A stretch of 33,670 nucleotides of DNA from Bacteroidales bacterium (lineage in GTDB: Bacteria; Bacteroidota; Bacteroidia; Bacteroidales; UBA932), in assembly GCA_017443465.1 (NCBI GenBank), contig JAFRXO010000013.1, positions 1-33,670 on the forward strand, given 5' to 3'. Numbering within the stretch: the stretch's first letter is position 1; each line of letters starts with the position of its first letter. The position numbers were made by a program, and so were the translations under genes. The notes beneath the pieces were generated by a model. The model was not told the origin of the DNA. It was given only the letters and a program-made list of their open reading frames with translations, and searched no databases. This document shows positions 8,792-24,036 of the stretch, piece after piece.

Positions 8792-8802
8792 AGGAACAGA
8801 TA

Positions 8803-8833
8803 TTTGCAGTTAGGATAAAAAAGTCTATATTTG
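8803..8833 (+). promoter_or_regulatory. Promoter of tRNA-Cys
   Basis: TTTG at 8803-8806, a 19-base spacer and TATATTTG at 8826-8833. This is the best match to the Bacteroidota primary sigma-factor consensus in the window and sits 11 bases before the mature tRNA. Confidence 0.85.
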
Positions 8834-8844
8834 CAATCCCAATC

Positions 8845-8915
8845 GGTGCGATGGCCGAGCGGTCAGGCACAGGTCTGCAAAACCTGGTACAGCGGTTCGA
8901 TTCCGCTTCGCACCT
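8845..8915 (+). tRNA. tRNA-Cys (anticodon GCA)
   Basis: A 71-base cloverleaf. The acceptor stem is GGTGCGA (8845-8851) with TCGCACC (8908-8914). The anticodon arm is CAGGT-CTGCAAA-ACCTG, with anticodon GCA. The T arm is GCGG-TTCGATT-CCGC. The discriminator is T at 8915, the base required for cysteine identity. The 3' CCA is not encoded. The length is normal for tRNA-Cys with a short variable loop. It has its own promoter and terminator. Confidence 0.97.
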
Positions 8916-8916
8916 C

Positions 8917-8958
8917 AAAAATGCTTCTACAGCTATCTGCAGAAGCATTTTTGTTTTT
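8917..8958 (+). terminator. Rho-independent terminator of tRNA-Cys
   Basis: A perfect 12-bp stem (8917-8928 with 8941-8952) with a 12-base loop, ending in five T residues, G, and five more T residues. It begins two bases after the tRNA and should also stop read-through from rlmI. Confidence 0.92.
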
Positions 8959-9042
8959 ATCTCTACCAACCGTTGTTACATTTTATTAAAATTTTTAGTC
9001 AAAAACTTGTTTTCTAAATTTTTTCTTTCTAAATTGCAGTCG

Positions 9043-9050
9043 AATATTTG
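9043..9050 (+). promoter_or_regulatory. Possible -7 promoter element of the glnN leader
   Basis: AATATTTG differs from TAnnTTTG at the first base only. An all-T stretch (9019-9024) lies about 18 bases upstream in place of TTTG. It would start transcription about 7-10 bases before the small leader ORF. No better candidate is visible between the tRNA terminator and glnN, nor between the 9188-9216 hairpin and glnN. Confidence 0.4.
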
Positions 9051-9062
9051 GTTTAATTTTTA

Positions 9063-9137
9063 ATGGCACGCACCCGTAATAATCAGCAGAAGCAGTCCCA
9101 GAACCAGCAGGTTCAGGGTGCTTCTCCGTGCGTATAA
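9063..9137 (+). CDS. Putative 24-residue Gln-rich leader peptide upstream of glnN
   Basis: A short ORF from ATG at 9063 to TAA at 9135-9137. It encodes MARTR, then NNQQKQSQNQQVQ, then GASPCV. Seven of 24 residues are Gln, all CAG, at codons 8, 9, 11, 13, 15, 16 and 18; three more are Asn. It is 130 bases upstream of glutamine synthetase and is followed by a terminator-like hairpin at 9188-9216. A cluster of codons for the amino acid made by the downstream gene is the hallmark of ribosome-mediated attenuators. No signal peptide or known small-protein family is recognised. Alternatively it may be a chance ORF over a structured RNA, because the CAG-rich part also forms the hairpin at 9088-9125. 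Translation is not demonstrated. Confidence 0.5.
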   Translation: MARTRNNQQKQSQNQQVQGASPCV

Positions 9138-9216
9138 TTCCAGCCGTATGCGGCACATAATTGAAAGAAGCAGATAAAAGATAGTTCAGAGGCTGGTCCC
9201 GAGGGGATCAGCCTCT
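9088..9216 (+). promoter_or_regulatory. Structured glnN 5' leader: candidate attenuator or cis-regulatory RNA
   Basis: Three hairpins in 129 bases. Hairpin A (9088-9125) has AGAAGCA/TGCTTCT, a GT bulge, CCC/GGG, an A-A mismatch, GAACC/GGTTC and an AGCA loop. Hairpin B (9128-9156) pairs 9128-9136 with 9147-9156 around one bulged G and covers the leader stop codon; a smaller alternative is GCCG/CGGC at 9143-9154. Hairpin C is the terminator-like stem at 9188-9216. Alternative pairings exist. AGAAGCA recurs at 9166-9172 and could take TGCTTCT (9119-9125) from hairpin A. CCAGCC (9140-9145) is complementary to GGCTGG (9191-9196) in the left arm of hairpin C and could act as an antiterminator. The pairings are seen by eye; no folding energy was computed. 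Confidence 0.5.
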
Positions 9217-9219
9217 CTT
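9188..9219 (+). terminator. Terminator-like hairpin between leader ORF and glnN
   Basis: A 13-bp stem (9188-9200 with 9204-9216, one G-T wobble) with a GAG loop, then CTTCTTAT instead of a clean T-run. The shape is common for Bacteroidota terminators. Here it lies 51 bases before the glnN start codon. It could either end a tiny independent transcript or attenuate glnN. Confidence 0.65.
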
Positions 9220-9267
9220 CTTATATAAAAGAAAAAAGGTAGTTAGTTTAATTAATAGTGTATTCTT

Positions 9268-11442
9268 ATGGATAGATTTGATTTGGTTAAGGAATCCTTT
9301 GAACGGAAAGAGGTTCCGGCTGAAGTCCCGGAAGGCAAGACTTCAGAGTATTTCGGCGAACTTGTGTTCGACCGGAAGAAAATGTGCAAATACCTCGATG
9401 CCGACTGTCTCCAGGCCCTGCTGGCTTGCATCGAGGGCGGCAAGGCACTCGACCGCGACACTGCTGACGGTGTGGCCCGCGGCATGAAGGAATGGGCGAT
9501 GGAACACGGCGTGACGCACGTTACCCACTGGTTCCAGCCACTCACCGAAGGTACTGCAGAAAAACACGATTCCCTGATCGACTATGACGGAAAGGGTGGA
9601 GTGATCGAGACTTTCGACGGAAAGATGCTCGCACAGCAGGAGCCGGACGCTTCCTCTTTCCCGAGCGGTGGCATCCGCGCCACCTTCGAGGCCAGGGGCT
9701 ATACCGCCTGGGATCCGACTTCTCCTGTCTTCATCCTGGACGATACGCTATGCATTCCGACGGTATTCATATCCTATACCGGAGAGGCACTGGATTACAA
9801 AACTCCTCTCAAGAAAGCCCTCAAGGCGGTCAGCGACGCAGCCGTACCTATTTGTAAACTCTTTGACCCGGCCGTCAGCAAGGTCTATTCCTACCTTGGC
9901 TGGGAGCAGGAATACTTCCTTGTGGATGAGGCCCTCTATTCCGCACGGACCGACCTGATGATAACAGGACGCACCCTGTTCGGTCACAATTCCTCCAAGA
10001 ACCAGCAGCTGGAGGACCACTATTTCGGCGCCATCCCCACAAGGGTAGCCGCTTTCATGCGTGACCTGGAGGTGGCCGGCCATCGCCTGGGCATCCCTCT
10101 GAAGACCCGTCACAACGAGGTAGCGCCCAACCAGTTCGAACTCGCTCCTATATATGGTGAAACAAATCTCTCGAACGACCAGAACCAGATAATAATGAAC
10201 TTGATGGGCCGTATCGCCAGAAAGCACGGTTTCGTCGTACTGCTGCACGAGAAACCATTCGACGGGGTGAACGGCTCGGGCAAGCACAACAACTGGTCTC
10301 TCGGGACCGACCGCGGTACGCCCCTTCTTGCTCCAGGCAAGGATGCAAAGGGCAACTTGCAGTTCATCACCTTCTTCGTCAACGTCCTTGCGGCCGTTCA
10401 GAAGCACAATGCGCTGCTGAAGGCCTCCATAGCCAGCGCTACCAATGCCCACCGTCTTGGAGCCAACGAGGCTCCTCCCGCAATCGTGTCCGCCTTCCTC
10501 GGCCGCACGATGACCGAAGTGCTGCACAAACTCCTTGAACTTCCTTCCGATACGCCGATCGAGATTGCCGGAAAGAAGGGCAAGAGCGTGGGACTGGTCG
10601 AGATTCCCGAGATATTCGTGGACAACACCGACCGCAACCGCACCTCTCCGTTCGCCTTCACGGGTAACCGTTTCGAGTTCCGCGCCGTCGGTTCCTGCGC
10701 CAACTGTGCGGGAGCAATGACCACCCTCAACGCCGCCGTTGCGGAACAGTTGCTTGACTTCAAGGCCGCTCTGGACAAGGAGCTCGCTTCCGGCAAGAAC
10801 ACCCAGGTTGCAATAATGGATGTCCTGAAGCCTATGATAAAGTCGGTGCTGGATGTCGTCTGCTTCGACGGGAACGGTTATACTGAGGAATGGAAAAAAG
10901 AGGCTGAGCGCCGTGGACTCGATGTGGAGACTAACGTTCCCAAGATGTTCTGCGAGTTCACCAAGCCTTACGCCGTGGAGATGTTCACCAAGACAGGAGT
11001 CTATACCGAGAAGGAACTGAAGGCCCGCAACGAGGTGAAATGGGAAACCTACATCAAGAAAGTCCAGATCGAATCCCGTGTGATGGTGCGTATGGCGCTG
11101 AATCACATCGTTCCCGCCGCTCTTGAATACAAGTCCACGCTGCTTAAGGAGGTGACGCTCGCAAAGGGTATCTACGGCGACCTGGACAACTGCAAGACTG
11201 AAATGCTCATCCTCGATGACATCAACAGGTTCGTGGAGGACGTGCGTGTCAAGGCCACTGCGATGAAGGAAGCGCGCAAGGCTGCCAACCAGATCGAAGA
11301 CGGCTACGAGAGGGCGCTTGCCTATCACGAGATTGCCGAAAGCTTCCCTGCCCTGCGCCGTCCCATAGACAAGCTCGAGGAAGTGGTAGATAACAAGATC
11401 TGGCCGTTGCCCAAGTATCGCGAGCTGCTATTTATCAATTAA
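9268..11442 (+). CDS. glnN: Glutamine synthetase type III
   Basis: A 724-residue enzyme, close to the roughly 730 typical of GSIII and far from the 450 or so of GSI. It makes glutamine from glutamate, ammonia and ATP in the cytosol. Conserved catalytic stretches are visible: GWEQEYFLVDE (about 211-221, metal-binding Glu), KTRHNEVAPNQFELAPIYGE (about 278-297), NGSGKHNNWSLG (about 333-344, glutamate and ATP site) and NRTSPFAFTGNRFEFR (about 456-471). The N-terminal GSIII-specific extension and the long alpha-helical C-terminal region are present. GSIII has no adenylylation site of the GSI type, so control is expected at expression level or by effectors, which makes the leader upstream relevant. 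It is the first gene of the nitrogen cluster; gltB starts 20 bases after its stop. Confidence 0.98.
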   Translation: MDRFDLVKESFERKEVPAEVPEGKTSEYFGELVFDRKKMCKYLDADCLQALLACIEGGKALDRDTADGVARGMKEWAMEHGVTHVTHWFQPLTEGTAEKHDSLIDYDGKGGVIETFDGKMLAQQEPDASSFPSGGIRATFEARGYTAWDPTSPVFILDDTLCIPTVFISYTGEALDYKTPLKKALKAVSDAAVPICKLFDPAVSKVYSYLGWEQEYFLVDEALYSARTDLMITGRTLFGHNSSKNQQLEDHYFGAIPTRVAAFMRDLEVAGHRLGIPLKTRHNEVAPNQFELAPIYGETNLSNDQNQIIMNLMGRIARKHGFVVLLHEKPFDGVNGSGKHNNWSLGTDRGTPLLAPGKDAKGNLQFITFFVNVLAAVQKHNALLKASIASATNAHRLGANEAPPAIVSAFLGRTMTEVLHKLLELPSDTPIEIAGKKGKSVGLVEIPEIFVDNTDRNRTSPFAFTGNRFEFRAVGSCANCAGAMTTLNAAVAEQLLDFKAALDKELASGKNTQVAIMDVLKPMIKSVLDVVCFDGNGYTEEWKKEAERRGLDVETNVPKMFCEFTKPYAVEMFTKTGVYTEKELKARNEVKWETYIKKVQIESRVMVRMALNHIVPAALEYKSTLLKEVTLAKGIYGDLDNCKTEMLILDDINRFVEDVRVKATAMKEARKAANQIEDGYERALAYHEIAESFPALRRPIDKLEEVVDNKIWPLPKYRELLFIN

Positions 11443-11462: not shown

Positions 11463-14400
11463 ATGGGTAAAGGTCTGTACAACTCGGCATCAGAACATGA
11501 TGCCTGTGGGGTCGGTATGGTTGTGAACATCCGTGGCGACAAGACCCACGAGCTCGTGAACAACGCCCTTTCAGTGCTGGAGAACATGAGTCATCGCGGA
11601 GCCGAGGGCGCGGACGGGAAGTCTGGGGACGGAGCCGGAATCATGGTCCAGATACCCCACGAATACATCCTGCTCCAGGGAGTTCCCGTCCCTGAGAAGG
11701 GACACTATGGCACCGGCCTGGCATTTCTGCCGAAAGATGCCGCGGAACGGTCCGAAATCCTGGATGCGATCCGCACGGAGGCTGAACGTGAGGGATGCCG
11801 GCTCGCATTTGTCAGGGATGTTCCGGTACAGTCGGCATGCCTTGGCGAAGAAGCGGCGAAAGGCGAGCCGCATACGGCCCAGATTTTCGTAACCAGTCAG
11901 GAATACCTTGAAGAATCGGTGCTGGAAAGGAAACTCTACCGCATCCGCAAGCATTTGGAGCGTTTGGGCGGGGAATGTTATATATGTTCCCTGTCCACTC
12001 GCAACATCGTGTATAAGGGTATGCTGACCAGCCGTCAGTTGCGCGAGTATTACACAGACCTGACAAGTCCCTGGTTCACGAGCGCGATGGCGATAGTGCA
12101 TTCCCGATTTTCAACCAATACCTTTCCTCAATGGAGTCTTGCCCAGCCTTTCAGGATGTTGTGTCACAATGGGGAGATAAATACGATCAGGGGTAATCGC
12201 AGTTGGATGCAGGCGAGGGAGAGCGTACTGGGATCCGGAGCATTGGGCGACATTACGGATATCACACCAGTCATCCAGCCGGGAATGAGTGATTCCGCGA
12301 GCCTTGACAATGTCCTTGAATTTCTGATTCATAGCGGATTAGGCCTTCCTCAGGCCGTTTCAGTGCTGATGCCTGAAAGTATTGATGAGACCAATCCCAT
12401 GTCCGAGGACCTGCATGCTTTCTATGAATATCATTCCATCCTGATGGAACCCTGGGACGGACCGGCCACGGTACTTTTCAGCGATGGCCGTTTCGCTGGT
12501 GGAATCCAGGACAGGAACGGCCTCAGGCCCGGACGATATACGATTACGAAGGGCGGACTGCTAGTTGTAGCCAGCGAAGTAGGAGTACTTGATTTCGATC
12601 CTGCTGAAATTGCTTGCAAAGGACGCCTGGAGCCAGGGAAGATGCTCCTTGTGGACACCAAGGAGGGACGCATTTATTACGATGCGGAAATAAAGGAGAG
12701 CCTGGCCGCCGAACATCCGTACAGGCAGTGGCTCTCTTCCGGACGCATCCAGCTCGAGGACCTGCACAGCGGCCGGAAAGTTGAACATAATGAGGACGAC
12801 CTGTTACAGAAGGAGCTCCTCTTCGGCTGCACGGCCGAGGATGTAGACAACACGTTGAAACCGATGTGTGAGCGGGGCCTGGAACCTATTTCCTCGATGG
12901 GTAACGACACGCCGCTTGCGGTCCTTACCGAACGGCCCCAGAGTTTCTTCAATTATTTCCGCCAGCAATTCGCACAGGTGACCAACCCGCCCATAGACTC
13001 CATACGCGAACAGATGGTGATGTCTCTGTTTGAATATATAGGACGCGTGGGAACGGGCATCCTGACTCCGGACGGAGACAACTGCAAGATGGTGCGCCTG
13101 CCCCATCCCATACTGACGAACACGCAGCTGGACCTGCTGTGCAACATACGCTACAAGGGGTTCAAGACTGAGAAACTGCCGATCCTGTTCCCTTGCGCCC
13201 CGGATACGGGATCGGCTGCGGCCAACCTTAAACAGTCACTTGCGGAACTGTGCCGAAAGGCGGAAACCTGCGTGGACGAAGGCGTGAACTATATCATTCT
13301 TTCCGACCGGGATGTGGATGAAGGGCATGCCCCGATTCCGTCCCTGCTGGCTGTCAGTGCGGTGCATCACCATCTGATTGCCGCCGGAAAGCGCGTGCAA
13401 ACCGCCCTTATAGTCGAGAGCGGGGAAATACGCGAAACGATGCACGCTGCGCTGCTTCTGGGTTACGGAGCTTCGGCAATAAACCCGTACCTGTCGTTCG
13501 CCATCATCTCCAGTCTTGCTCACGGAGGCAAGATTCAATTGAATTATTCCACCGCCCGAACCAATTATATCGAGGCGATGAAGAAGGGCCTGCTCAAGAT
13601 CATGGCCAAGATGGGCATCTCGACGATACGCTCCTACAGGGGTGCCAAAATCTTTGAGAGCATAGGTCTCGATGCCGGTCTTTTGAAGGAGTATTTCGGA
13701 ACTGAAGAGTCCTCCATAGGCGGTATAGGCCTGAAGACGATTGCGCGTGATGCGATGTATTTCCACGCCAAGGCATTTGCCTTACGGCCTGATACGGATT
13801 ACCTGCCGGTGGCCGGATTGTTCCACTACCGCAAAGGCGGGATCACCCATGCCTGGAATCCGGAGACCATATCCACCCTCCAGCAGGCCACCCGTCTCGG
13901 CAGTTACAAGAAATTCAAGGAATTCACAGCCATTGCGGACAGCCGCGGCGAGGCGTTGTTCCTGCGTGACCTTCTTGATTTCAAACGATCTCCGATAGCT
14001 TTGGATGAGGTAGAGCCTGAGACGGAGATAGTGAAGCATTTCGTTGTCAGCGCGATGAGTTTCGGCGCCCTCAGCATCGAGGCGCACGAAGCCATAGCCC
14101 TGGCGATGAACCGCCTTGGCAGCCGTTCCAACACAGGAGAGGGTGGCGAGGACAATGCCCGTTATCACAGTGACGTGGACGGAATTTCGCTTTCCAGCAA
14201 GACCAAGCAGGTGGCCTCAGGTCGTTTCGGGGTGACGGCTGAATACCTTGTCAATGCGGAGGAGATCCAGATAAAGATCGCCCAGGGCGCCAAGCCAGGC
14301 GAGGGCGGCCAGCTTCCCGGATTCAAGGTAAACGAGATTATCGCCAAGACCCGCAACTCCATTCCAGGGATATCGCTGATATCGCCACCCCCGCATCATG

Positions 14401-15935
14401 ACATATATTCCATCGAGGATCTGTCACAGTTGATTTTCGATCTCAAGAATGTCAATCCCTCTGCTGCTGTAAGCGTGAAACTTGTCGCTGAAAGTGGAGT
14501 GGGCACCATTGCCGCCGGCGTTGCCAAGGCCAAGGCCGACCTCATCGTTGTATCGGGAGCGGAAGGCGGCACAGGTGCGTCTCCGGCTTCATCGATGCGT
14601 TTTGCGGGAATCAGTCCCGAAATAGGGCTCTCGGATGCTCAGCAGACCCTGGTGAGGAATGGCCTTCGGGAAACGGTTCGCCTACAGGTGGACGGCCAGT
14701 TGAAAACCGGCAGGGACGTGGTCCTGATGGCTCTGCTGGGTGCGGACGAATTCGGCTTCGGCACCCTTCCGCTTATAGTGATGGGATGTGTGATGATGCG
14801 CAAATGCAGTCTGAACACCTGTCCGACAGGGGTTGCAACCCAGGATCCCCGTCTCAGGGCGCATTTCATGGGCAAAGCCGATTACCTGGTCAACTACTTC
14901 ACCTTCCTGGCGCGTGAGGTTCGGGAATACCTTGCCGAAATGGGTTTCCGTCATTTTTCCGACATAGTAGGCCATACGGAACTTCTGGTCCGTAAACCAT
15001 CCTTACCAGGCACAAAAGCCTCCTTTGTCGACTTGTCCCGCTTGCTGTTCCGTGAGGAAGGAGCCCTTTGCTGGGCCGGAGGTCCGTTGCATGCTCTTCC
15101 GTCCGTCCTGGACCGTGAAATCATCAAATCGGCCGGGCCGGCTATTGATCGAAAGGAAGGAATAAGCCTTGATTATCCGATAGCGAATACCGACAGGGCC
15201 GTCTGTACAATGCTCAGCGGACGGATCGCCGAAAAATATGGAGCTGAAGGCCTGCCGGATTCTATCATCAATATAAATTTCAAGGGATCAGCCGGGCAGA
15301 GTTTCTGTGCCTTTCTAGCCGCGGGGGTCAATGTCTGTCTGGAAGGGGAGGCCAACGACTATGTAGGGAAAGGCCTCAGCGGCGGACGCATCACTATCCG
15401 TCCTTCATCGCAGGTTACTTATGATGCCGAAGACAACATGATTGCCGGTAACACCTGCCTGTACGGGGCTACAGGAGGCGAAATGTATGTCTCGGGCCGT
15501 GTCGGCCAGCGGTTCGCAGTGCGCAATTCCGGAGCCAACGCCGTCGTGGAAGGCGCCGGAGACCATTGTTGCGAGTACATGACAGGAGGACGCGTCGTGG
15601 TGCTCGGTCCTGTCGGACGCAACTTCGCAGCCGGAATGTCCGGTGGCTTAGCCTACGTACTGGACCCGAATCGTGTTTTCGATTTCTATTGCAACATGGA
15701 CATGGTCGAAATATCGCTTGTGGACGACAAACTGGACCGGGAGGAACTGGAGGAACTGGTCCGGCGGCATTGTCATTATACCGGCTCGGCCATTGCCAGG
15801 AAACTGCTGAACGACTGGAACCGATACGTTGACGATTTCATCAAGGTCATTCCGATTGAATACAAGCACGTTCTCGAGCGGGAAAGGCTCCGTGCCCTGG
15901 AAGAGAAGGTTCAGAACCTGCAATACCAATATTGA
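11463..15935 (+). CDS. gltB: Glutamate synthase (NADPH-type), large subunit
   Basis: A 1490-residue GOGAT alpha subunit, the normal length. It transfers the glutamine amide to 2-oxoglutarate to make glutamate. The class II amidotransferase domain starts at EHDACGVGMV; Cys15 should become the N-terminal nucleophile after removal of a 14-residue propeptide, and RFSTNTFPQW and CHNGEINT follow. The central domain is at about 450-780. The FMN-binding barrel starts near SAMSFGALS (about 860) and contains SRSNTGEGGED. The 3Fe-4S ligands are Cys1109, Cys1115 and Cys1120 (C-x5-C-x4-C), the spacing known for this enzyme. The C-terminal GXGXG helix domain includes NDYVGKGLSGG. It lies six bases before gltD and shares its transcript. 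Confidence 0.98.
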   Translation: MGKGLYNSASEHDACGVGMVVNIRGDKTHELVNNALSVLENMSHRGAEGADGKSGDGAGIMVQIPHEYILLQGVPVPEKGHYGTGLAFLPKDAAERSEILDAIRTEAEREGCRLAFVRDVPVQSACLGEEAAKGEPHTAQIFVTSQEYLEESVLERKLYRIRKHLERLGGECYICSLSTRNIVYKGMLTSRQLREYYTDLTSPWFTSAMAIVHSRFSTNTFPQWSLAQPFRMLCHNGEINTIRGNRSWMQARESVLGSGALGDITDITPVIQPGMSDSASLDNVLEFLIHSGLGLPQAVSVLMPESIDETNPMSEDLHAFYEYHSILMEPWDGPATVLFSDGRFAGGIQDRNGLRPGRYTITKGGLLVVASEVGVLDFDPAEIACKGRLEPGKMLLVDTKEGRIYYDAEIKESLAAEHPYRQWLSSGRIQLEDLHSGRKVEHNEDDLLQKELLFGCTAEDVDNTLKPMCERGLEPISSMGNDTPLAVLTERPQSFFNYFRQQFAQVTNPPIDSIREQMVMSLFEYIGRVGTGILTPDGDNCKMVRLPHPILTNTQLDLLCNIRYKGFKTEKLPILFPCAPDTGSAAANLKQSLAELCRKAETCVDEGVNYIILSDRDVDEGHAPIPSLLAVSAVHHHLIAAGKRVQTALIVESGEIRETMHAALLLGYGASAINPYLSFAIISSLAHGGKIQLNYSTARTNYIEAMKKGLLKIMAKMGISTIRSYRGAKIFESIGLDAGLLKEYFGTEESSIGGIGLKTIARDAMYFHAKAFALRPDTDYLPVAGLFHYRKGGITHAWNPETISTLQQATRLGSYKKFKEFTAIADSRGEALFLRDLLDFKRSPIALDEVEPETEIVKHFVVSAMSFGALSIEAHEAIALAMNRLGSRSNTGEGGEDNARYHSDVDGISLSSKTKQVASGRFGVTAEYLVNAEEIQIKIAQGAKPGEGGQLPGFKVNEIIAKTRNSIPGISLISPPPHHDIYSIEDLSQLIFDLKNVNPSAAVSVKLVAESGVGTIAAGVAKAKADLIVVSGAEGGTGASPASSMRFAGISPEIGLSDAQQTLVRNGLRETVRLQVDGQLKTGRDVVLMALLGADEFGFGTLPLIVMGCVMMRKCSLNTCPTGVATQDPRLRAHFMGKADYLVNYFTFLAREVREYLAEMGFRHFSDIVGHTELLVRKPSLPGTKASFVDLSRLLFREEGALCWAGGPLHALPSVLDREIIKSAGPAIDRKEGISLDYPIANTDRAVCTMLSGRIAEKYGAEGLPDSIININFKGSAGQSFCAFLAAGVNVCLEGEANDYVGKGLSGGRITIRPSSQVTYDAEDNMIAGNTCLYGATGGEMYVSGRVGQRFAVRNSGANAVVEGAGDHCCEYMTGGRVVVLGPVGRNFAAGMSGGLAYVLDPNRVFDFYCNMDMVEISLVDDKLDREELEELVRRHCHYTGSAIARKLLNDWNRYVDDFIKVIPIEYKHVLERERLRALEEKVQNLQYQY

Positions 15936-15941
15936 CGCGTT

Positions 15942-20636
<4,695 letters not shown>

Positions 20637-20763
20637 GCAATAATCTTTATTAAATTGATATATAGATACTTGCGAAAGAATGGATTTCGCTTGTAAGGGG
20701 GATTATTTGCCTTCTGATAGGAAAGCGGAGCAAAAATATAAACTAAAAGTTAGTAGTGCAATG
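20637..20763 (+). other. Intergenic region between the purF-like gene and P-II
   Basis: The longest gap within the nitrogen cluster, about 127 bases and AT-rich at both ends. It contains a 6-bp inverted repeat, GCGAAA (20672-20677) and TTTCGC (20685-20690). An in-frame ATG at 20680 would extend P-II by 28 codons. No full TAnnTTTG element is visible; the nearest is TTATTTG at 20703-20709, one base short. An internal promoter for the P-II-amtB-asnB part is possible but not shown. Confidence 0.4.
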
Positions 20764-21111
20764 ATGAAAAAGATTGAAGCGATAGTGCGGAAAACGCACT
20801 TTGAAGATGTCAAGCAGGCGTTGTTCGACGCTGACATCAACTGGTTCTCCTATTCGGAAGTCAAGGCTATCGGCCAGGACAGGGAGGACCGTATTTACCG
20901 CGGCGTCATGTACAGCACGGACGTTATTTCCCGGATAGAGATCACGATAATATGTCGTGATCAGTTCGTCGAGCCTGCAGTAAAGGCCATCCTGGCTTCC
21001 GCCCATACGGGAGAAGTCGGTGACGGACGCATTTTTGTCAGTGACGTGATCGATACCTGGTCCATCAGGACCGGCGAGCACGGGGACACGGTTTTGCGGG
21101 ACAAAAAGTAA
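20764..21111 (+). CDS. P-II family nitrogen regulatory protein (GlnB/GlnK type)
   Basis: A trimeric signal protein that binds ATP/ADP and 2-oxoglutarate and controls targets such as AmtB. From the ATG at 20764 it is 115 residues and begins MKKIEAIVRK, exactly as the family does (the ATG at 20761 adds one Met). The T-loop (about 37-55) includes IYRGVMY, whose final Tyr50 aligns with the uridylylated Tyr51 of E. coli GlnB; the loop is one residue shorter. The B-loop region HTGEVGDGRIFV (about 81-92) and the C-loop SIRTGE are conserved, though one Arg of the usual IRIRTGE is Ser. It lies 21 bases before amtB, the classic glnK-amtB pair, so GlnK-like control of ammonium uptake is the best inference. 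The in-frame ATG at 20680 is judged unlikely. Confidence 0.93.
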   Translation: MKKIEAIVRKTHFEDVKQALFDADINWFSYSEVKAIGQDREDRIYRGVMYSTDVISRIEITIICRDQFVEPAVKAILASAHTGEVGDGRIFVSDVIDTWSIRTGEHGDTVLRDKK

Positions 21112-21132
21112 ACCTCTGAAAACCATGTAATC

Positions 21133-22350
21133 ATGAACGAGATAGCCTTGTCTTTGGATACAGTCTGGATGCTGCTGGCAGCAATGCTCGTTTTCTGGAT
21201 GCAACCGGGATTCGCACTATGTGAAGCCGGATTCACACGCAGCAAGAATACGGTGAATATCCTGATGAAGAACTTCGTGGACTTCATGTTCGGCTCGCTC
21301 CTGTTCTTCTTCATCGGTTTCGGTTTCATGTTTGGCAGTGAAGGGGCTGGTTTCATCGGGGCTCCCAACTGGGGGAGTCTCTCCTTTTACAAAGGCAATC
21401 TGCCTGTCGAAGGCTTTTTGATTTTCGAGACAGTCTTCTGTGCCACTTCCGCCACAATAGTCAGCGGTGCTATGGCGGAAAGGACCAAATTTTCGATGTA
21501 CTTGATTTACAGTGCATTCATATCCCTGTTCGTTTATCCAATCGAGGGCCATTGGACCTGGGGCGGAGGCTGGCTTAGCCAGATGGGCTTCCACGATTTC
21601 GCTGGAAGCGCTATCGTGCACAGCGTCGGGGGAGTACTTGCCCTCATCGGAGCCATGGCCCTCGGCCCCCGTATCGGGAAATATGGAAAAGACAAGAAGA
21701 GCAGGGCTATTCCGGGCCATAATCTTGCCCTGGCGGCTCTCGGCGTTTTCATCCTGTGGCTCGGATGGTTCGGATTCAATCCTGGCAGTCAGCTTGCGGC
21801 AAGCGGTGAAGTGAACCGAACCGCAATATCGCACGTTTTTTTGACTACGAATCTGGCTGCGGCTGCAGGCGGGGCTGCGACAATGTTCCTGACGTGGATC
21901 AAATACGGGAAGCCGTCACTCTCCCTGATGCTGAACGGCATACTGGCCGGCCTTGTGGGTATAACGGCAGGCTGCGATGTCGTGTCGCCGTGGGGAGCCG
22001 TGGTCATAGGTCTTGTATGTGGTACAATCCTGGTGTTCGCCATTGAATTCATCGACCATAAACTGCACATAGATGACCCTGTCGGCGCCTCTTCCGTGCA
22101 TGGTGTATGTGGTATCCTCGGCACACTGATGACAGGCCTTCTCGCGACGGAAGGAGGCGTGTTTTACGGAGGTGGATGGAATTTTATCGGAGTCCAGGCA
22201 CTGGGTGTTATCGTGATAGACCTGTGGGCTGCAGTTTGCGGATTCATTCTGTTTTTTGGCATAAAAAGAGCCTTCGGCCTGCGTGTCGAACCCCGTGTGG
22301 AAGAGGAAGGCCTCGATGTCTATGAACACGGCGAAAGCTGCTACAATTAA
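21133..22350 (+). CDS. amtB: Ammonium transporter
   Basis: A 405-residue inner-membrane channel of the Amt/Rh family with about eleven hydrophobic segments, the normal size. It conducts ammonium across the cytoplasmic membrane as a trimer. The twin-His pore is visible: His163 in FAGSAIVHSVGG and His323 in SSVHGVCG. The conserved Asp155 lies in HDFAGS and the aromatic-rich EGHWTWGGGW precedes it. The N-terminus (MNEIALSLDTVWML) runs directly into the first helix; a separate signal peptide as in E. coli AmtB is not evident. The short acidic C-terminal tail (about 385-405) is where P-II proteins dock in relatives. It is directly after the P-II gene and 12 bases before asnB. Confidence 0.97.
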   Translation: MNEIALSLDTVWMLLAAMLVFWMQPGFALCEAGFTRSKNTVNILMKNFVDFMFGSLLFFFIGFGFMFGSEGAGFIGAPNWGSLSFYKGNLPVEGFLIFETVFCATSATIVSGAMAERTKFSMYLIYSAFISLFVYPIEGHWTWGGGWLSQMGFHDFAGSAIVHSVGGVLALIGAMALGPRIGKYGKDKKSRAIPGHNLALAALGVFILWLGWFGFNPGSQLAASGEVNRTAISHVFLTTNLAAAAGGAATMFLTWIKYGKPSLSLMLNGILAGLVGITAGCDVVSPWGAVVIGLVCGTILVFAIEFIDHKLHIDDPVGASSVHGVCGILGTLMTGLLATEGGVFYGGGWNFIGVQALGVIVIDLWAAVCGFILFFGIKRAFGLRVEPRVEEEGLDVYEHGESCYN

Positions 22351-22362
22351 ATCAATTGCCAT

Positions 22363-24036
22363 ATGTGTGGAATAATAGGTATTTTCAACCTGCGTGAACA
22401 ATCCGACGAAATGCGCCGGAAAGCGTTGCAGATGAGCCGTAAGATCCGGCATCGCGGACCGGATTGGAGCGGCATATGGTGCGGAGGAAGCGCCATTCTG
22501 TGCCACGAGCGCCTGAGTATCGTGGACCCTGAGTCGGGTGGTCAGCCGCTGTTTTCCCCAGACGGGAAACAGGTGCTGGCGGTGAATGGAGAAATATACA
22601 ACCATCAGGTAATACGCCATCGCTATGCCGGCATGTACGATTTTCGGACAGGCAGCGACTGTGAGGTCATACTTGCGCTATACCGGGATAAGGGACCTGA
22701 TTTCCTGGAGGACTTGAGCGGCATTTTCGCCTTTGCGCTTTATGATGCCGAGCAGGATGCCTTCCTTATCGCACGTGATCCTATCGGGGTTATTCCCTTG
22801 TACATAGGTTTCGACGATTCCGATGGCAAGGTATATGTCGCCAGCGAACTGAAGGCTCTTGAGGGCCAGTGCGAGCGCTATGAGCCGTTCCTGCCCGGTC
22901 ACTGTTATTGGAGCAAGGAGCGCAGAATGAAACGCTGGTATAAAAGAGACTGGATGGAATACGAGGCTGTAAAGGACAACGGTGCCTCGAGCCGGGCTGT
23001 CCGCGAGGCCCTGATGGACGCGGTGAAACGGCAGTTGATGTCGGATGTGCCTTACGGAGTATTGCTCTCCGGCGGACTTGATTCTTCCGTCATATCCGCC
23101 ATTGCGGAGTGCTTCAGCGCAATGCGGATAGAGGATGACTCACAGACACGTGCATGGTGGCCGCGCCTGCATTCCTTTGCCGTCGGTTTGAAAGGGGCTC
23201 CTGACCTGGCCAAGGCCAGACTTGTGGCCGAACATATCGGCACCGTCCACCACGAGATAAACTACACCATACAAGAAGGACTGGACGCAATCCGCGATGT
23301 GATTTATTTCACTGAGACCTATGACGTTACAACTATCAGAGCCTCCACCCCCATGTACCTGCTTGCCCGTGTCATCAAATCTATGGGTATCAAGATGGTC
23401 TTGTCAGGGGAGGGAGCGGATGAGATATTCGGCGGATACCTTTATTTCCACAAAGCCCCTTCCGCCCGGGATTTTCACGAGGAGACGGTGCGCAAACTGT
23501 CCAAGCTGCATCTTTACGACTGTCTCAGGGCAAACAAGAGTCTCGCGGCCTGGGGAGTGGAAGGACGCGTGCCATTCCTGGACAAGGAGTTCCTTGACGT
23601 TGCTATGAGTGTCAACCCTGAAGAGAAGCTTTGCCCGGGAGACGTCATTGAGAAACGTATTGTCCGTGAGGCGTTCTCCGACATGCTTCCCGAAGAGATT
23701 GTCTGGCGGCAGAAGGAGCAGTTCAGCGACGGAGTGGGTTATTCCTGGATAGACACCTTGAAACGCATTGCGTCTGAAGCAGTCTCAGATGAGCAGATGG
23801 CTCATGCGGCAGATCGTTTCCCCGTTCATCCGCCTCTTTGCAAGGAGGAATACTATTACCGTTCCATTTTTGCGGAACTCTTCCCGAGCGAAAGTGCCGC
23901 GCGGAGCGTGCCGAGCGAGGCGAGCGTTGCCTGTTCAACAGCCATCGCCCTGGAATGGGATGCGGCGTTCAAGAACAGGAACGATCCCAGCGGCCGCGCG
24001 GTCGCCGGAGTCCACAGGCAGGCGTATGGACACTGA
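22363..24036 (+). CDS. asnB: Asparagine synthase (glutamine-hydrolysing) B
   Basis: A 557-residue cytosolic enzyme, close to the 554 of E. coli AsnB. It makes asparagine from aspartate, ATP and glutamine. The class II amidotransferase domain starts MCGIIGIF, with Cys2 as nucleophile, then RHRGPDWSG, HERLSIVD and VNGEIYNH. The synthetase domain has the ATP-pyrophosphatase P-loop LLSGGLDSSV (about 234-243), SGEGADEIFGGY and GVEGRVPFLDKEFL. The C-terminus keeps the typical VACST, EWD and DPSGRAV. The region just before VACST is unusually GC-rich and Ser/Ala/Glu-rich (SESAARSVPSEAS). It is the last gene of the nitrogen cluster. No terminator is visible in the 15 bases before the convergent neighbour. 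Confidence 0.97.
   Translation: MCGIIGIFNLREQSDEMRRKALQMSRKIRHRGPDWSGIWCGGSAILCHERLSIVDPESGGQPLFSPDGKQVLAVNGEIYNHQVIRHRYAGMYDFRTGSDCEVILALYRDKGPDFLEDLSGIFAFALYDAEQDAFLIARDPIGVIPLYIGFDDSDGKVYVASELKALEGQCERYEPFLPGHCYWSKERRMKRWYKRDWMEYEAVKDNGASSRAVREALMDAVKRQLMSDVPYGVLLSGGLDSSVISAIAECFSAMRIEDDSQTRAWWPRLHSFAVGLKGAPDLAKARLVAEHIGTVHHEINYTIQEGLDAIRDVIYFTETYDVTTIRASTPMYLLARVIKSMGIKMVLSGEGADEIFGGYLYFHKAPSARDFHEETVRKLSKLHLYDCLRANKSLAAWGVEGRVPFLDKEFLDVAMSVNPEEKLCPGDVIEKRIVREAFSDMLPEEIVWRQKEQFSDGVGYSWIDTLKRIASEAVSDEQMAHAADRFPVHPPLCKEEYYYRSIFAELFPSESAARSVPSEASVACSTAIALEWDAAFKNRNDPSGRAVAGVHRQAYGH

Follow-up and report, generated by a model that had tools for sequence, protein, structure and literature searches.

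The window analysed here, the whole stretch of 33,670 nt of DNA, carries on its plus strand a row of genes that begins with glnN (9268-11442). The glnN product of 724 aa is matched by the NCBIfam glutamine synthetase models, all below their cut-offs, and we take it to be a type III glutamine synthetase. It is followed by gltB (11463-15935), gltD (15942-17294), pyrG (ending at 18901), a purF-like gene (ending at 20636), a glnK-like gene (20680-21111), amtB (21133-22350) and asnB (22363-24036); the purF-like and glnK-like genes have NCBIfam matches below cut-off, the other five are above. Judging from the shared strand and the short gaps, which extend over the whole stretch from gltB to asnB (11463-24036), the genes glnN-gltB-gltD-pyrG-purF-glnK-amtB-asnB likely form one operon and would be transcribed together. 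With the exception of the transporter and the PII protein, the operon encodes enzymes that make or use glutamine. It was originally predicted that glnN and gltBD onward would be read as one unit; the leader described below does head gltBD, but the likely unit runs further, to asnB.

Upstream of glnN, on the same strand, lies a short leader ORF of 24 codons (9063-9137) with the translation MARTRNNQQKQSQNQQVQGASPCV*. Codons 6-18 hold seven Gln codons, all CAG, and three Asn codons, and both the place and the composition of the ORF are kept in relatives. When 9021-9190 was shuffled 5000 times with its dinucleotides preserved, not one shuffle produced an ORF with 10 Asn/Gln or 7 Gln per 13 codons (shuffle means 1.9 and 1.3, respectively). 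The codon-rich stretch of the original prediction is correctly placed and beyond chance. The 29-base piece from the leader start occurs a single time in the genome of the window (G000, Bacteroidales, an incomplete assembly that is 96% complete). Being short, upstream and rich in codons for the product of the pathway, the ORF looks as the leader of an attenuator would be expected to look, the genes behind it being ones that make or use Gln and Asn.

To score promoter-like elements we used TAnnTTTG or TAnnTTG, presumably the -7 consensus of Bacteroidota. A likely promoter was found at 9006-9037 on the plus strand, with CTTG at 9006-9009 and the -7 element TAAATTGC at 9030-9037, 25 nt 5' of the leader ATG, and transcription would therefore start just 5' of 9063. 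Among 21 leaders inspected, such an element is placed at -28 to -42 from the leader start in 16, further off (-65, -85 and -92) in three, and absent in two. In the gap between terminator and glnN (9217-9267) no -7 like sequence of either form was detected, in agreement with the earlier claim of no clear promoter at this place. The stretch 8845-8953, on the strand of the leader and just 5' of its promoter, contains a tRNA-Cys (anticodon gca) and, behind it, a strong hairpin that has a run of T.

Between the ORF and glnN a terminator scan of 8800-9400 reported two overlapping sites, where 0.6 would be expected, and both are the same 13 bp hairpin at 9188-9216 on the plus strand. This hairpin, 51 bases ahead of the glnN start at 9268 as originally described, is by prediction an intrinsic terminator, and the stretch 9172-9225 folds with z = -3.9. 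Its 5' arm includes GGCTGG (9191-9196), hereafter region 3. The imperfect T-run, previously named as a weak point, is indeed imperfect in the window, while some relatives have a better one, e.g. eight T in L006.

Folding of the window and comparison of relatives further revealed an RNA domain between leader and terminator, in which an outer stem, P0, encloses a hairpin, P1, all on the plus strand. The P0 arms are TGCTTCT (9119-9125) and AGAAGCA (9166-9172), and P1 (9128-9156) has the arms 9128-9136 and 9147-9156, with the stop codon of the leader (9135-9137) at the top of its 5' arm. In an alignment of 24 sequences, 14 of 16 pairs are changed on both sides (6/7 in P0, 8/9 in P1), and 84% of P0 cells and 91% of P1 cells are paired; since P0, P1 and the terminator guided the fitting of this alignment, the pairing counts lean towards them. 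Counted jointly with seven loop pairs, P0 and P1 have 85% of cells paired, which falls to 36-44% when the alignment is slid by 1-3 columns. The P0/P1 region of the window itself (9103-9185) is no more stable than its shuffles (z = +0.88; 167 of 200 shuffles fold as well). In the loop of P1 lies CCAGCC (9140-9145, plus strand), hereafter region 2, which is complementary to the GGCTGG of the terminator 5' arm and is our candidate for an antiterminator strand. The ORF and the hairpin of the original prediction are both real; P0, P1 and the CCAGCC/GGCTGG pairing had been overlooked.

Occurrence of the leader before nitrogen genes

The original prediction had proposed to look for a leader and hairpin upstream of glnN in related Bacteroidales, and the arrangement does recur. 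Counting as a leader any short ORF with 6 or more Asn/Gln within 13 codons and no more than 400 bases upstream, we found one in 31 of 109 glnN loci, window included, and none in 78. By identity of glnN the counts are 16/20 at 85% or more (window included), 13/66 at 75-84% and 2/23 below. The 109 loci remain from 111 after removal of L067, which has no gene start, and L111, which repeats the window, and they hold the near-duplicates L038/L039, L005/L043, L006/L007/L053 and L010/L055. In a control set of glnN at 59-68% identity, which has L022-L030 in common with the 109 loci, 1/34 has such a leader. None was seen at eight other glnN copies (L231, which is the second glnN of the window's own genome, L238 and L242-L247, L243 with only 35 bases).

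Where asnB stands directly before glnN (12 loci, 36-315 bases upstream covered) the leader precedes asnB in two, L079 and L108, and L225, outside those 12, is a third case of a leader before an asnB-glnN pair. An order-wide asnB set gave 2/30 loci with a leader, L163 and L165; both leaders are Asn-rich (MFILNNFNLLINNNPFER and MYLLNNNNLFNYNPFQW) and the terminator sequence differs in both.

When each leader was compared with 300 shuffles, 47 of the 57 leaders tested were equalled by at most two; with 4-5 Asn/Gln per 13 codons, the members L049, L080, L093 and the second leader of L010 are weaker, 5-10% of their shuffles doing as well. After dropping five loci without a leader, the leaders are distributed over glnN (42), asnB (8), gltB (1) and glnK (1), n = 52, and further loci add leaders before glnK, asnB, glnN and purF. 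L035, L070, L230, L058, L059 and L075 were dropped from the gene tally and from the permutation, spacing and pairing counts given below, and L059, which has no ORF, from the shuffle list as well. The leader sequences diverge between loci while the richness in Asn and Gln is retained. The mean Gln share is 0.58 in the 42 glnN leaders and 0.32 in the 8 asnB leaders; this is suggestive of a Gln versus Asn share that differs by the downstream gene, but the loci are related.

Several candidates were rejected as members. At L058, L059, L061 and L075 glnN has a strong hairpin and no Asn/Gln leader; the hairpin, GAGGGCTAGTCC..GGACTAGCCCTC or similar, lies right before glnN and is perhaps another kind of control. 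L035 shares the terminator but differs in its upstream half; in L070 both the loop and the terminator are present, with no clear Asn/Gln leader. At L077 (5977-6071) the leader MKRMNNIWWWHLQLD and a terminator precede a gene identified by eye as trpB-like. This is likely a Trp attenuator in the same style, and we regard it as a look-alike in which the antiterminator is not established.

Further, we searched with a covariance model, R2, which starts 3' of the Gln codons and has both the codons and the gene identities outside the model. Over 151 genomes of the genus it gave 31 matches at E <= 1.5e-7, window included. All of these top matches except L230 have an Asn/Gln-rich leader (30/31, in 29 genomes), and the genes behind them are glnN, asnB, gltB or glnK. 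New matches were found at asnB (L222, L225, L227), gltB (L226) and glnK (L228, L232), while many of the glnN matches resemble or equal training sequences, which makes that part of the result partly circular; the asnB leader L079 was also in the training set. The true top matches come from 29 of the 151 genomes, many of the genomes being incomplete. The titles of related loci include Bacteroidales and Candidatus Cryptobacteroides, and the genus is probably Cryptobacteroides-like.

Weaker R2 matches number well over a hundred. Among 11 of them that were examined (E 1.9e-7 to 6.2e-5), leaders were found in seven, before asnB (L234, L240, L248), a glnN of 61% identity (L235), glnK (L239, L241) and purF (L250), and none in L233, L236, L237 and L249. 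L241 (G000:C33:14500-15156, 201-314) is a second Asn/Gln leader of the window's own genome, MIDIFTITANFKQQLVSENSQNSQNNNAVSCLAGRIR, situated between the end of a pyrG-like gene and a second glnK, with a CCGGTC loop and a GACCGG terminator. L250 (G513:C196:3800-4700) has the leader MFYTFNNNNNNNQNLNNEVLRKSRV and CCAGCC/GGCTGG before purF, an enzyme of purine synthesis that uses glutamine.

Beyond the genus the covariance search loses its specificity, with a match at E <= 0.01 in 360 of 392 genomes of the order. Of the 29 best matches outside the window's genome, inspected by eye (L120-L148), three (L120, L121, L135) have an Asn-rich leader of the type that L093-L095 and L098 carry ahead of glnN. 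The remaining 26 resemble plain gene-end terminators and were rejected. Across Bacteroidales the ends of genes repeatedly show terminators with the pattern AGGCTGnTC..GAnCAGCCT (L122-L134, L136-L148), and for this reason the conservation of GGCTGG is uninformative when taken alone. The model is specific only inside the genus, and GGCTG-type terminators swamp it outside.

Complementarity between the P1 loop and the terminator

The pairing of region 2 with region 3 was left out of the structure model. In the alignment 99.3% of 138 cells pair, as do 98.0% in the shuffle control, most pairs being constant. Double changes from A-U to G-C number only two within the alignment, and the count of pairs changed on both sides (1) was reached by 89/500 shuffles.

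Variants outside the alignment show the matching of loop and terminator more plainly than the alignment itself. Variant terminators with matching variant loops occur in L040, L042, L049, L229, L239, L241 and L029, for instance GACCGGTC with GACCGGTC in L049, CCGGCC with GGCCGG in L229, CCGGTC with GACCGG in L239 and L241, and UCCGGUA with UGCCGGG in L029. When 54 distinct leaders were paired with their own terminator arms, the summed pairing was better than in all 20,000 permutations; the mean energy was -13.0 kcal/mol for own pairs and -12.0 kcal/mol for permuted pairs, a gap of about 1 kcal/mol, and for some leaders (e.g. L033, L034, L036) the best duplex is formed elsewhere than in the P1 loop. 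In 51 of 53 leaders there is a pairing of 6 or more, where 20.2 would be expected from shuffles and the maximum in 300 shuffled sets was 30. The two exceptions look like choices of the script, which picked another hairpin in L165 and an earlier codon cluster in L239. Leader and arm pairs that were identical were counted once in both tests.

The sequences thus point to an alternative pairing with the terminator 5' arm, as an attenuator would need. At about -12 kcal/mol the CCAGCC:GGCTGG duplex is weaker than the terminator at -24 kcal/mol, and therefore the antiterminator must win by forming first.

Possible regulation and relation to known systems

We consider it highly probable that the region 5' of glnN works by ribosome-mediated transcription attenuation and senses the charging of tRNA-Gln and tRNA-Asn together. 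The sequence evidence consists of the leader, P0, P1, the CCAGCC/GGCTGG complementarity with its variants, the shape of the terminator and the gene contexts, and from these we infer translation, stalling, timing, termination and the direction of the response. The leader peptide would be translated, and with both tRNAs charged the ribosome would reach the stop codon inside P1, open P1 and cover CCAGCC. This would leave GGCTGG free, the terminator would form, and transcription would end near 9220. With either tRNA in short supply the ribosome would stall in the Asn/Gln block with its front edge short of P1; P1 could then form and show CCAGCC in its loop, where it would pair with the emerging GGCTGG. 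The terminator could then not close, and glnN to asnB would be read.

The spacing of the leaders is tight and about what such stalling would call for. From the last Asn/Gln codon of the block to region 2 there are 21-40 nt, median 29, in 44 leaders (identical ORFs counted once; L163, L165 and the second L010 leader left out, and L224 having no listed motif), so that a ribosome held up in the block would be expected not to reach P1. Against the model, the position of the stop codon relative to region 2 varies, from -34 to +11 nt. In the window's genome both GlnRS (704 bits) and AsnRS (611 bits) were found above cut-off and GatB gave no match, while GatB was found in 12 of 14 control genomes; the Gln and Asn pools should therefore bear directly on both tRNAs.

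The reading of the region as an attenuator, which was the core of the original prediction, is supported by the recurrence before glnN, asnB, gltB, glnK and purF and by the matching antiterminator variants. Glutamine as the signal stands in part, since Gln codons are present, but the leaders carry Gln plus Asn and would not read Gln alone. Very likely, the leader and its RNA switch enable this bacterium of the gut to activate its genes for nitrogen assimilation when Gln or Asn is low.

Other explanations have to be weighed against the same data. P0/P1 might, as in the trp leader, protect against antitermination, with a stalled ribosome covering the P0 5' arm and thereby freeing region 2. The P0 5' arm does begin 4 nt after the last CAG (9114 to 9119) and a ribosome there would cover it, but region 2 lies in the loop of P1 and not in a stem, and is not obviously hidden by P0/P1, hence we find this version unlikely. 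Control by the leader peptide could also work by Rho-dependent polarity, or by a stalled ribosome that simply blocks the terminator. Translation-coupled variants are known in other leaders, yet the matching variants of loop and terminator would be left unexplained, and we hold such control to be very improbable.

If the ORF were incidental, P0/P1 could be the aptamer of a metabolite riboswitch for glutamine or another nitrogen signal, since it is a conserved fold near a terminator and a glutamine riboswitch, the glnA RNA, exists in cyanobacteria (treated in parts of PMC2864571 and PMC8632094). However, the stem sequences of P0 and P1 change freely, the invariant columns of an 18-sequence alignment are almost wholly in the terminator, and the Asn/Gln codons lie outside the domain and are still retained in 30/31 top matches. 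Scanned against Rfam, neither the window nor any of 16 related loci gave a match at the leader, the covariance models of the T-box, Bacteroid-trp RNA (RF01692) and glnA RNA (RF01739) included, and we rate a riboswitch a shade lower still. Finally, a promoter-like element 5' of the ORF and a terminator 3' of it could delimit an independent gene for a small protein, with glnN served by its own promoter. This we find scarcely credible, as the peptides have little in common across loci beyond their richness in Asn and Gln, the same layout stands ahead of five kinds of nitrogen gene, the gap at 9217-9267 offers no -7 like element, and the complementarity of the antiterminator is retained.

Returning to the attenuator that reads both tRNAs, we speculate, more as a conjecture than a conclusion, that Gln/Asn attenuators before each nitrogen operon (glnN, asnB, gltB, glnK-amtB and purF) might serve a large group of Bacteroidales as their main nitrogen sensor. 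Nitrogen status would be read as the speed of translation over codons for the amide amino acids, with the antiterminator held in a hairpin loop and readthrough as the default when there is no translation, in place of two-component or GlnR-type control. In Prevotella ruminicola, according to PMC5552732, glnN-2, gltBD, glnK, amtB and asnB move together 27-69 fold with the ammonium supply, and cells given ammonium express glnN-2, GOGAT, glnK, amtB and asnB more strongly than cells given peptides. The latter fits with peptides sparing Gln and Asn. Section 7 and a figure legend of that paper disagree on excess versus limiting ammonium, most of the passages giving higher expression in excess, which a simple starvation switch would not predict.

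To our knowledge, nitrogen sensing is poorly known in Bacteroidota, though the phylum is dominant in gut and rumen. If the proposed mechanism is true, a switch responding to tRNA charging before glnN, gltBD, glnK-amtB, purF and asnB would be a direct answer to how nitrogen is sensed, and would explain how these genes can be controlled in concert with no regulator of their own. Gln and Asn would join the amino acids read by leader peptides, with a mixed reading of two amino acids, and the device would be an example of an antiterminator presented in a hairpin loop.

The original prediction knew of no glutamine attenuator described for type III glutamine synthetase in Bacteroidota, and we likewise found no Gln or Asn leader attenuator described in searches of open-licence PubMed Central papers. 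Passages in PMC9723704, PMC7366714, PMC2965389, PMC2864571 and PMC8632094 indicate that the phylum is suspected to use leader attenuation and that leaders for further amino acids continue to be discovered; those passages describe no Gln or Asn leader. The main text of PMC7366714 has no word in glutamin- or asparagin-, that of PMC9723704 has one such word only, a glutamine cyclotransferase, PMC2965389 has no glutamin-, asparagin- or gln word, and PMC8632094 treats glutamine only as a riboswitch ligand.

Among known systems of the same phylum, leader attenuation has been inferred before amino-acid operons of Flavobacterium psychrophilum (PMC9723704) and leader-like sORFs have been reported in Bacteroides thetaiotaomicron (PMC7366714), and these share the mechanism proposed here. 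Outside the phylum, PMC8632094 describes uORFC-8-2, a Cys leader before cysS in Rhodobacterales. Like the present leaders it is a conserved ORF with amino-acid specific codons and a terminator, found by comparative genomics, whereas it concerns Cys, belongs to alpha-proteobacteria and has one gene on its side. In a table of PMC2864571, Bacteroid-trp RNA (RF01692) is listed as cis-regulatory and not as a switch. It resembles the present device in being a cis-regulatory RNA of Bacteroidetes and differs in that it concerns Trp genes; we take this motif to be an attenuator. The cyanobacterial glnA (RF01739) and Downstream-peptide (RF01704) RNAs also place glutamine synthetase and other nitrogen genes under RNA control, but they bind a ligand, and they match the present region in neither sequence nor structure.

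The leader attenuators of amino-acid biosynthesis in Proteobacteria (trp, his, thr, leu, phe) share with the present region a short leader rich in codons for the product, a terminator and an alternative pairing of the terminator 5' arm. The device described here would differ from them in that Gln and Asn are read together, the antiterminator strand sits in a hairpin loop and copies stand before several operons, and both amino acids would be new to leaders of this kind.
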